A stretch of 64,000 nt of DNA. It comes from Tepidiforma thermophila. Its GTDB lineage: Bacteria; Chloroflexota; Dehalococcoidia; Tepidiformales; Tepidiformaceae. This document shows, in pieces, positions 6,933 through 10,017 of this stretch. The stretch is from positions 1,550,001 through 1,614,000 of the forward strand of contig NZ_PDJQ01000001.1 of NCBI RefSeq assembly GCF_002563855.1, written 5' to 3'. The notes below the pieces were generated by a model that saw only the letters and a list, made by a program, of their open reading frames with translations, was not told where the DNA came from and did not search any database. How positions within the stretch are numbered: position 1 is the stretch's first letter; every line of letters begins with the position of its first letter. The translations under genes and the position numbers were made by a program.

Positions 6933-7640
6933 TCACCTGCCCCGCTGCGCCCTCTCCCGTCCCGGGATCGGCTGGAGCTTCGCCGCACAGTCGAACACCC
7001 GCCCGAAGTGAAACACGAACGCCTCTGCCACCTCGTCGAGCGCAACCTGGCGGCCGACCTCTGCCGCCATCGTCGTGACCTCGACGTCAGCCATCCCGCA
7101 GGGGTTGATCAGCTCGAAGTGCTCCAAATCGGTGTCAACGTTCAGGGCAATGCCGTGCATGGTCACCCAACCGCGCACATGTAGCCCGACCGACGCGATC
7201 TTCCGGCCCTCCACCCAGACCCCCCGGCCGCGGACCGATCGCTCGCCGCGGAGGCCCCAGTCCGCCAGCACGCCGATCACCGTCTCCTCGAGCCCGCTGA
7301 CGTACTCCGTCACGCCAATGCCCCAGCCCTTCAGCGCGATGATGCCGTATGCCACCAGCTGGCCCGGTCCGTGGTAGGTGATGTCACCGCCCCGCTCGGT
7401 GGGGACGATCTCGATGCCGTACTGTCGGACCACGTCTTCCGCGACCCGCAGATTCGGGACCGGATGGCTTCGCCCGAGGGTAAAGACCGGCCGATGCTCT
7501 GTGAGCAGCAGCGTGTCCACCCCGGAGCCGGCCCGGCGGGCAGCCTGCAGCCGCTGCTGCAACCGGTGCACTTCCCCGTAGCTCGTCGTGCCCAGGTGAT
7601 ACACCGCCACCGCACGTCCTGCTGCCTCTGCAGTCTCCAC
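6933..7640 (-). CDS. lipB: Lipoyl(octanoyl) transferase LipB
   Basis: 235 residues from a GTG at 7640. The Shine-Dalgarno AGGAG begins inside the upstream TAG stop (TAGGAGAACC-GTG), which decides this start over the longer open frame. LipB moves octanoate from acyl carrier protein to the lipoyl-domain lysine of 2-oxoacid dehydrogenases and GcvH. Family motifs are present: TERGGDITYHGPGQLVAY (residues 81-98), the catalytic Cys181 in INPCGMADVEV and Lys147 in GRKIASVG. The same frame is open without a stop into the preceding E2-like gene, which makes an artificial 615-codon fusion. The neighbour's lipoyl-like domain suggests a shared theme. Confidence 0.93.
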   Translation of the reverse strand: METAEAAGRAVAVYHLGTTSYGEVHRLQQRLQAARRAGSGVDTLLLTEHRPVFTLGRSHPVPNLRVAEDVVRQYGIEIVPTERGGDITYHGPGQLVAYGIIALKGWGIGVTEYVSGLEETVIGVLADWGLRGERSVRGRGVWVEGRKIASVGLHVRGWVTMHGIALNVDTDLEHFELINPCGMADVEVTTMAAEVGRQVALDEVAEAFVFHFGRVFDCAAKLQPIPGRERAQRGR

Positions 7641-7647
7641 GGTTCTC

Positions 7648-8780
7648 CTACCCCCAGAGCCGGAACGGGTTTTCCACCAACGAGCGTACCCGAGCAAGGA
7701 CACGTCCAGCGTCCCCTTCCCCGAACAGCATGCTGTCGTAGCGCATCGTGATCGTGCCCTGGCCGTCCGGGCCCGCCCCAGCCCGAATGCCAGCCGCAGG
7801 CCCGAAAGCCGGGGCTCCAGCCGCTCCACCCCGAGCGGCATCAGCGAAACGACCACCCATTCCGCCCGCTCAAAGGAGCCCCCGCCGTCGGCCCGCGCCT
7901 GCACCATCGCCCGAAATTCCGAATCGAGCGGGTGTTCGATCGCGTACGAACGGTCCGTCTCGGGCTCGACGACCACGACCCCGGCCGGGCCCGCCTCCAG
8001 CCCCGCCTCGGCAAGCGCGCGGGCAATCGCGCGGACGGCCAGGTCCTCGACCGTCGGCTTCGGCCCGAACGGCTGCCACTCGTCGCCGAGTGCCGCCACA
8101 GCCTCCTTCGCACGCGTCCACGAAACACACACATGCGCGCTCAGGACCTCCGCGCTTGCCGCTGCAGTTTCGGCAATCTGTTCGAACCGGTCGGCCCGGT
8201 CCTCGACCGTGCCGGCTGCCCCGGGCCCGGACCCCGCCTCGGCGTCCGCGCGTGCGGCCTCGGCCTCTTCGTCCCAGAGCGGCAGCCCCGGGATGGCTCC
8301 CCCCGGTTCTGCAAGCGGGTCGATGCGGCCGGCCGCGGTCCTCGCTCCCCGTCCCGGGAAGGGGAGCACCACCGGCGCCTGCTCAGGCCCCTCTTTCGAC
8401 TCGACTGCCGGTTCCGCGCTCGCAACCGCCCGATGGCCCGCACCCGGCCCGGGTTCCGGTTCCGGATCACCTGCCGGCCGGCTGCCGCCTGCCAGGGCGC
8501 CGACTTCGAAGGCGCGCAGCTCTTCCTCCGGTGGCAGCCCTTCCCCCCGGCCCACAATGACCCCGAGGATTGCGCCTTTCCGTTCGATGCTCCCCGCTGG
8601 CCGGCGGTGCCGAAGGACCCCCCCGCCTTCCGCTTCAATCTCAAACGCGATGAATTCACACTCCAGCCGGCAGACCGGCTCGCCGGGCGCAACCTCCGCG
8701 CCGTCCGGCCGATACCACTCCGCGACCAGCCCGCCGACCATCTCCCGTCCAAGGTCTGGAACAGCCACGAGCGCGACCAC
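7648..8780 (-). CDS. Degenerate dihydrolipoamide acyltransferase (E2)-like protein, frameshifted
   Basis: From the GTG at 8780, residues 1-75 resemble a biotinyl/lipoyl domain (VPDLGREMVGGLVAEWYRPD). The lipoyl-lysine position, normally ETDK, reads ECEF, so Phe43 replaces Lys. A long acidic Pro/Ala linker is followed by an acyltransferase-like C-terminal domain (about residues 215-345). Near 7765-7790 the homology leaves this frame (FGLGRAR...) and continues one base back (GPDGQGTITMRYDSM to SLVENPFRLWG, stop 7648-7650). One base appears to be missing in a G/C run. The catalytic HxxxDG is also lost (YDSMLFGE). It is either a non-lipoylated pseudoenzyme with a sequencing error or a decaying gene. 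Its stop codon overlaps the lipB ribosome-binding site. Confidence 0.7.
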
Positions 8781-8926: not shown

Positions 8927-9142
8927 CTACCGGCCGGGGTCGCCAGCTCTGCCCTCATCTTCCCGTTCAGCCCGGCGCCCCAGCGTCCCGGGCCCGCCGG
9001 CGACCGCCACGCCGGCCAGCGCCACCACGCCGATGATGACCAGCCCCTCCCGTCCGGCCAGGACACCGGCGCCGACCGACACCGCGCCCAGCACCCCGAG
9101 CACCACCGGCCCCAGCCTTCCGAACCGTGGCCCCCTGATCAC
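8927..9142 (-). CDS. Small membrane protein, two predicted spans
   Basis: 71 residues from a GTG whose GTGA overlaps the thyX stop codon, so translation is probably coupled. Two hydrophobic stretches, VVLGVLGAVSVGAGVLAG (about 13-30) and LVIIGVVALAGVAVAGGPG (about 34-52), are followed by a charged tail (RRAEREDEGRAGDPGR). I recognise no family. The overlap with thyX and the clean membrane pattern support a real gene. The 150 bases after it, before the E2-like gene, show nothing I can name. Confidence 0.6.
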   Translation of the reverse strand: MIRGPRFGRLGPVVLGVLGAVSVGAGVLAGREGLVIIGVVALAGVAVAGGPGTLGRRAEREDEGRAGDPGR

Positions 9143-10017
9143 CCGCTAGCGGCTCCGCCGTCACCCGGGCTATCCGGCTGCAGCTCCGCGGCTGACTCGA
9201 TCGTGCGGAAATCCTCATCCCTGAGCGGCTGCAGTTCGCCCCGCCGGTACGACTCATAGACCTTGAACAGCAACTCTTTGTGCGGGCGGACCCGCCCAAT
9301 CGGGCATGCTTCCCACGCCTCGTAGTCTTCGTCGCAGTAGCCGAGCCGCCGCTCCCCGCACTTCGGCTGCAGCATCCGCCCCAGCACCGGCTCAACCTTC
9401 ATCACCTCAGCCCGCATCAGGGCTGCAACCTTTCGAAACTCCCATTGCGCCCGCGTGCACAGCCGCAGGTCGCAGATGTGCAGCAGAGACTGCAGATTCA
9501 CTGTCACCTTGAAGTTCGTGTTCGTCGCGTTTGGCAGCAAGAACCGCGCATCCTCGGCGGGCACCCCGGCGGCCACCATCCGCTCGTACAGGGCCCCCGC
9601 TTCCTCAAACAGCCGCTCCATTTCCCCGGCCAGCCCTGCCCTCTCGACCGTCTCCGGCACGGTGTAGGGGAACCGGCCGCCCTTGTAGGTCACATACCGC
9701 TGCGATTGCTGCTCGAAGCTGATGCCGACCCGGTGCCGGACAAACTGGTGAGAGAACGCCCGGCTCACGCCTGAGATGGCGAATTCGAACCACACCTGCT
9801 CGAGCGGCGAGGTGTGCCCGGTCTTCAGCCGCTCCTCCACAAACGCAAGCATCGTTTCCCGCGAGATCCGCTCGTCTCCGATGCGCGCGGCGACCTGCTG
9901 CGGCGTCAGCGACGAGTAGCACGTCCGGTACGCCATGTACAGCGACCGGATCGGGTCGGGGCTGTGCGAGAGGAGCGTGACGGCAATCGCCATGGCTGCA
10001 CTCGCATCGTGCGGCAC
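9139..10017 (-). CDS. thyX: Flavin-dependent thymidylate synthase ThyX
   Basis: 292 residues. ThyX methylates dUMP to dTMP using methylene-tetrahydrofolate, FAD and NADPH, replacing ThyA. The ThyX motif is at residue 94: RHRVGISFEQQSQRY. The usual spacing is RHR-x7-S; here eight residues separate RHR and S. Other conserved parts are SPLEQVWFEFAISGVSRAF and ARFLLPNATNTNF. A start eight residues further in (MAIAVTLLSHSPDP) is also possible. A small membrane protein overlaps its 3' end by four bases. It is somewhat longer than the usual 220-250 residues, mainly because of its C-terminal tail. Confidence 0.93.
   Translation of the reverse strand: MPHDASAAMAIAVTLLSHSPDPIRSLYMAYRTCYSSLTPQQVAARIGDERISRETMLAFVEERLKTGHTSPLEQVWFEFAISGVSRAFSHQFVRHRVGISFEQQSQRYVTYKGGRFPYTVPETVERAGLAGEMERLFEEAGALYERMVAAGVPAEDARFLLPNATNTNFKVTVNLQSLLHICDLRLCTRAQWEFRKVAALMRAEVMKVEPVLGRMLQPKCGERRLGYCDEDYEAWEACPIGRVRPHKELLFKVYESYRRGELQPLRDEDFRTIESAAELQPDSPGDGGAASG

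Follow-up and report, generated by a model that had tools for sequence, protein, structure and literature searches.

A predicted catalytically dead E2 paralogue conserved directly upstream of lipB in the family of Tepidiforma

What might an E2-like protein do directly upstream of lipB if it has neither the lipoyl lysine nor the catalytic histidine of an E2? The question is raised by the window, a 64,000-nucleotide stretch of DNA (G000:C1:1550001-1614000) from the 2.74-Mb, single-contig genome of Tepidiforma thermophila (Chloroflexota; G000), in which the gene for such a protein, here termed pseudo-E2, is also interrupted by a break in its reading frame. The product begins with a lipoyl-like domain, continues through a disordered linker, and closes with an E2-type acyltransferase fold that retains the C-terminal helix RVLARVRSLVENPFRLWG. 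The features of the locus, in window positions, are as follows:

9139..10017, minus strand: thyX, flavin-dependent thymidylate synthase, upstream of the pseudo-E2 gene (TIGR02170)
7648..8780, minus strand: pseudo-E2 gene, start GTG at 8780, stop TAG at 7650-7648 (open reading frames, translation, and six-species alignment)
8523..8780, minus strand: lipoyl-like domain of about 86 aa with Phe (ECEF) at the Lys position (PF00364, AlphaFold2 [AF2], and alignment)
8168..8522, minus strand: low-complexity linker without a PSBD, limits approximate (pLDDT, absence of PF02817, and motif alignment)
7648..8167, minus strand: E2 acyltransferase-like domain without catalytic His/Asp, limits approximate (AF2 model of T. 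flava pseudo-E2 and active-site columns)
7776..7781, minus strand: frame break, one base short in a G run (nucleotide alignment with five congeners)
7682..7702, minus strand: 21-nt element TGTCCTTGCTCGGGTACGCTC, within the pseudo-E2 gene at its 3' end
6933..7640, minus strand: lipB, lipoyl(octanoyl) transferase, start GTG at 7640 (TIGR00214)

Only 7 nt separate the pseudo-E2 stop from the lipB start, a spacing shared by all six Tepidiforma genomes. As the first-pass annotation had read it, the TAG that ends the second frame also begins the lipB ribosome-binding site: TAGGAG at the stop leads to the GTG at 7640. LipB scored 167.7 bits against TIGR00214 (cut-off, 83.55) and retained the catalytic Lys and Cys in its GRKIAS and NPCG motifs; the gene is, as judged from these motifs and the profile score, an ordinary lipB. 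The lipA gene did not adjoin the pseudo-E2 gene. Between thyX and the pseudo-E2 gene, a small hydrophobic protein of 71 aa was predicted (8927-9142, minus strand; no NCBIfam match).

The loss of the lipoyl Lys and the catalytic His beside lipB, the central claim of the first-pass annotation, was seen directly and extended to all 19 orthologues aligned. The lipoyl-type domain of the window reads RLECEFIAFEIEA against RLETEKIEFQVEA in the family's catalytic E2, such that the lipoyl hairpin carries ECEF and not the ETEK of the catalytic forms. On direct reading the C-terminal motif was likewise DSMLFGE in place of DHxxxDG, with Ser replacing the catalytic His. When the active-site columns of 19 pseudo-E2s were aligned with those of 23 catalytic E2s, none of the former and all of the latter had the lipoyl Lys (0/19 versus 23/23), its position in the pseudo-E2s being occupied by Phe (11), Asn (2), His (2), Ala (2), Tyr (1), or Asp (1). 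The catalytic His was similarly partitioned (0/19, the column holding 12 Pro and 7 Ser, versus 23/23), and the Asp of DHxxxDG was kept in a single pseudo-E2 (1/19 versus 23/23). The NPP and RxxIA motifs were also missing from the pseudo-E2s, falling within a loss that leaves their core domain some 50 to 60 residues shorter than that of a catalytic E2. A normal E2 with its residues masked by the frame error was considered and rejected: every intact orthologue lacks both Lys and His. Read from sequence, the pseudo-E2 is a catalytically dead E2 paralogue, conserved and linked to lipB; the earlier description of it as a non-catalytic E2 relative is supported by the clean division of these columns.

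The frame break itself could be an error or a real change. A one-base difference of frame near 7765-7790 had been proposed from the sequence; a single base is indeed missing, and alignment with five congeners places the break more narrowly, at 7776-7781. The first frame carries the lipoyl-type domain and most of the E2 core, and the second carries its end, MRYDSMLFGEGDAGRVLARVRSLVENPFRLWG, up to the stop TAG at 7650-7648. With the base missing, the first frame is open through into lipB, giving a read-through ORF of 615 aa. A genuine one-base change in T. thermophila would thus yield a pseudo-lipoyl/LipB fusion, a protein that would suit the adaptor role considered below. Yet the codons past the shift are constrained, the 36 codons beyond the break differing from those of the nearest species (G004) by 9 synonymous changes and 1 non-synonymous change, and lipB retains a start of its own. 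Moreover, the G000 assembly also splits its catalytic E2 (L077:4172-5548; G000:C1 about 860,172-861,548), in a C-rich, Pro/Ala-rich linker, and this second break points to sequencing error. The catalytic E2 of G004 is intact, with a C-terminal part 93% identical to the G000 copy. On this evidence a real fusion is very improbable.

Still less probable is that the gene is a decaying pseudogene, in which the frameshift and the residue losses would belong to one process of loss. Such a reading could point not only to the break in G000 but also to one elsewhere in the gene in G005 (KatS3mg062 MAG; L006:1340-1500), where the frame is broken in the linker, at a site other than that of the window. It is contradicted, as an explanation of the gene, by the intact copies in four congeners and by pN/pS values well under 1; the gene has been kept across 13 genera, and the changes past the shift stand at 9 synonymous to 1 non-synonymous. 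Two conserved genes broken where the sequence is rich in G/C suggest indel errors in the G000 assembly. Because the congeners are intact, the post-shift codons are constrained, and the same assembly breaks its catalytic E2, the frameshift seen in the window most likely stems from a sequencing error; of the two causes offered by the first-pass annotation, error or decay, the former is favoured. For one Tepidiforma type strain, possibly not the source of the assembly used here, the genome was assembled from PacBio reads only (PMC10284905). Counting frameshifts ORF by ORF across the window gave a noisy result, owing to open antisense frames in DNA of 68% G+C, and was used for the pseudo-E2 only.

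How far does the protein still resemble an E2? Comparison with the two Pfam families suggested at the outset gave an uneven result: all 12 orthologues searched matched PF00364 (lipoyl), and only 5 of the 12 reached PF00198 (acyltransferase). No PF02817 (PSBD) match was found in the 12 members up to an E value of 1; the catalytic E2 of G004 served as a control and showed two PF02817 stretches. In that catalytic E2 (L078:3680-5479) the two PSBD stretches lie in tandem, and another gene sits between those for E1-beta and E2 in G004. No NCBIfam model passed its cut-off for the pseudo-E2 member shown. Searched against solved structures, a profile of the pseudo-E2 family matched E2 and PDHX entries (E value, 6.8e-21), with human PDHX at the top. 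With four of five congeners carrying an intact copy and the profile matching E2/PDHX structures, the observation is not a chance one.

For the T. flava pseudo-E2, AF2 gave confident lipoyl-like and core-like domains joined by a disordered stretch (residues 92-192; pLDDT under 50), and the lipoyl-like domain modelled alone reached a pLDDT of 90.9 and a pTM of 0.80. This domain superposed on an E2 lipoyl domain with a Z score of 12.4 over 79 residues, and the core-like model on the pig E2 core with a Z score of 21.5 over 170 residues (rmsd, 2.8). In the model, the residue that stands in for the lysine, Tyr43 in T. flava and Phe in most members, falls in the inter-strand turn that holds the lipoyl-Lys. 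Short VxPFPxR-like and IPGLPLWE-like motifs persist in the linker; in Tepidiforma and the genera close to it they read, for example, VVPFPRR and IPGLPLWE. The most conserved part of the core domain is its C-terminal helix and tail; the corresponding E2 segment makes the knob-into-hole contact between trimers in E2 cores (PMC8421416).

These models bear on whether the protein might act on LipB alone. A pseudosubstrate regulator, free of the E2 core, would insert its Phe-bearing hairpin into the LipB acceptor site and so limit octanoylation. A lipoyl fold with Phe, Tyr, Asn, His, Ala, or Asp at the Lys position, encoded next to lipB, is what such a regulator would look like; the conservation of a whole E2-core-like domain with its contact helix would be left unexplained, and among the roles weighed here we regard this one as the least probable.

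Is the association with lipB a property of one genus or of a larger lineage? As a search of relatives had been expected to reveal if the gene were real, an intact copy adjoins lipB in both genus and family. The gene was intact upstream of lipB in four of five congeners (G001-G004), including the complete genome of T. flava YIM 72310 (G001), and lay directly before lipB in 23 genomes from 13 genera of the Tepidiforma family (LipB sequences were drawn from 35 genomes). Neither outcome that would have told against the first-pass annotation, a lack of intact relatives or normal Lys and His residues, occurred. In every genome with a pseudo-E2 and a contig that reaches far enough, lipB is immediately downstream on the same strand; among the family loci fetched, none of the E2s with DHxxxDG lies beside lipB, and in the loci read the pseudo-E2 gene is not near those for E1, E2, or E3. 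Five genera (g13, g12, g7, g15, and g9) have lipB without a pseudo-E2. In g13, lipB directly follows thyX, the gene found just upstream of the pseudo-E2 gene in Tepidiforma; more generally, in the genera of the family that lack the pseudo-E2, the gene before lipB is thyX, belongs to etfBA, or is another one, and no E2-like protein is encoded there. A contig labelled "Holophagae bacterium FeB_10" (L064) carries a pseudo-E2/lipB pair of the Tepidiforma-family type and is possibly misbinned.

Presence of the pseudo-E2 required 2 changes on the LipB tree, versus about ten with shuffled labels, and the pseudo-E2s formed a single clade (support, 100/100) with long branches indicative of fast evolution. 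Outside the family, no pseudo-type match was recognised among the best matches fetched from 245 genomes of the class and 301 of the phylum, a search in which a rare pseudo-E2 could be missed; in the loci fetched, the full-length best matches all keep a DHxxxDG or DHRVFYG-type motif, with the catalytic His retained. Plasmids yielded no pseudo-E2 match, and a literature search found no description of a lipB-linked inactive E2. Among congeners, the lipoyl part had a pN/pS of 0.04-0.24 and the core part one of 0.09-0.31, against 0.44-0.68 in the linker; lipB gave 0.07-0.13. By this measure the lipoyl and core domains are constrained, under purifying selection, and the linker is mostly free; the pseudo-E2s are, as the sampled genomes indicate, a lineage-specific family that purifying selection has maintained in 13 of the genera related to Tepidiforma at family level.

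The long branches, fast evolution, and deleted or replaced active-site regions could also be taken to mean that the core domain was remodelled for a new function unrelated to lipoylation, such as binding another ligand or forming a trimeric scaffold. That the gene is strictly linked to lipB across 13 genera speaks against such a function, and we consider it improbable.

A second conserved feature lies within the end of the gene. The 21-nt element (7702-7682) is identical in all six Tepidiforma species and occurs once per genome, preserving unusual codons (CGT, CTT, GCT, and GTA). Its seven consecutive codons are invariant against a background of 20% per amino-acid-invariant codon, which as a rough product amounts to about 1e-5. 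It matches neither a sigma-70 consensus nor an Rfam family. Because it ends about 40 nt upstream of the lipB start, it is plausible that the element is an embedded lipB control site.

Inactive E2 paralogues have a precedent in mitochondria, where the non-catalytic paralogues of E2 are E3-binding proteins (E3BPs), PDHX (protein X) among them. Members of that group are recognised by E2-homologous topology with a catalytically inactive core domain, an E3-specific PSBD, and incorporation into the E2 core (PMC10156792). The pseudo-E2 shares the first of these: like the E3BP of mitochondrial pyruvate dehydrogenase, it is an acyltransferase-dead E2 paralogue with a lipoyl-type domain, a linker, and an E2-core-like domain. 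Unlike E3BP, it has no E3-specific PSBD and no lipoyl Lys, and it is linked to lipB. Incorporation into the core may occur through the conserved C-terminal contact helix, the models being of monomers. Compared with E2 itself (PF00364, PF02817, and PF00198), its first and last domains are folded alike and the C-terminal helix is kept, but the lipoyl Lys, the catalytic His/Asp, NPP, RxxIA, and the PSBD are missing. Because the PSBD and lipoyl Lys are absent, the pseudo-E2 is not an E3BP member, nor is it a catalytic E2; it likely arose from a bacterial E2, independently of PDHX.

The pseudo-E2 is thus probably a scaffold or adaptor and no enzyme. The scaffold or regulator first proposed had two possible partners, LipB and an oxoacid dehydrogenase; an adaptor serving both is favoured, and the best explanation, which we prefer tentatively on comparative grounds, is a non-catalytic E2-core adaptor whose dead lipoyl domain docks LipB. 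Its C-terminal domain would join or cap the core of the catalytic E2 through the retained contact helix, and its unmodifiable lipoyl-like domain would dock LipB as a substrate look-alike. LipB would thereby be kept near the many lipoyl domains that need octanoylation, or have its activity set by docking, and the pseudo-E2 would serve LipB in the way that E3BP (protein X) serves E3. LipB binds its donor only at micromolar levels (PMC9307952), and therefore a tether or recruitment to the core could help.

Several lines are consistent with this adaptor: lipB is always immediately downstream on the same strand in the 23 pseudo-E2 genomes, and the fetched DHxxxDG E2s are not so placed; the pseudo-E2s are one clade with only 2 changes of presence on the LipB tree; Lys and His are lost throughout while both domains keep low pN/pS; the lipoyl and E2-core folds are recovered and the top solved sequence is human PDHX; core conservation is strongest in the C-terminal helix and tail, the knob-into-hole segment (PMC8421416); no E1/E3-binding domain is present; and LipB retains its catalytic Lys and Cys. 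However, gene adjacency can arise by simple co-transcription, the loss of about 50 to 60 core residues including NPP and RxxIA makes trimer formation uncertain, and LipB evidently does not need a pseudo-E2 in the five genera that have lipB without one. In its full form, with a LipB-recruiting dead paralogue plugged into the core and holding the octanoyltransferase beside its substrate domains, the proposal is a doubtful one.

Next in rank, and rather unlikely, is a subunit without catalytic activity that has a structural or regulatory place in the 2-oxoacid dehydrogenase core and makes no contact with LipB, co-expression serving to let core and lipoylation rise together. The E2-core fold with its C-terminal helix, PDHX as the closest solved sequence, and the tight 7-nt spacing in six of six Tepidiforma genomes would all fit such a subunit. 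It accounts less readily for a gene placed beside lipB and away from the E1/E2/E3 genes in the loci read, for the loss of the PSBD, and for a lipoyl-like fold that is under strong selection though unable to carry lipoate. The remodelled domain with an unrelated function ranks below it, followed by the pseudosubstrate regulator.

The adaptor reading, like the sequence comparisons from which it proceeds, describes a bacterial lineage with its own non-catalytic E2 paralogue, devoid of lipoyl Lys and PSBD and fixed beside lipB. The family offers a case of pseudoenzyme evolution with controls of its own, namely its catalytic E2s and those genera that lack the pseudo-E2. The arrangement suggests a dehydrogenase core on which lipoylation may be organised physically; if true, the pseudo-E2 would be a new kind of 2-oxoacid dehydrogenase accessory subunit and would add a new step to lipoate assembly.
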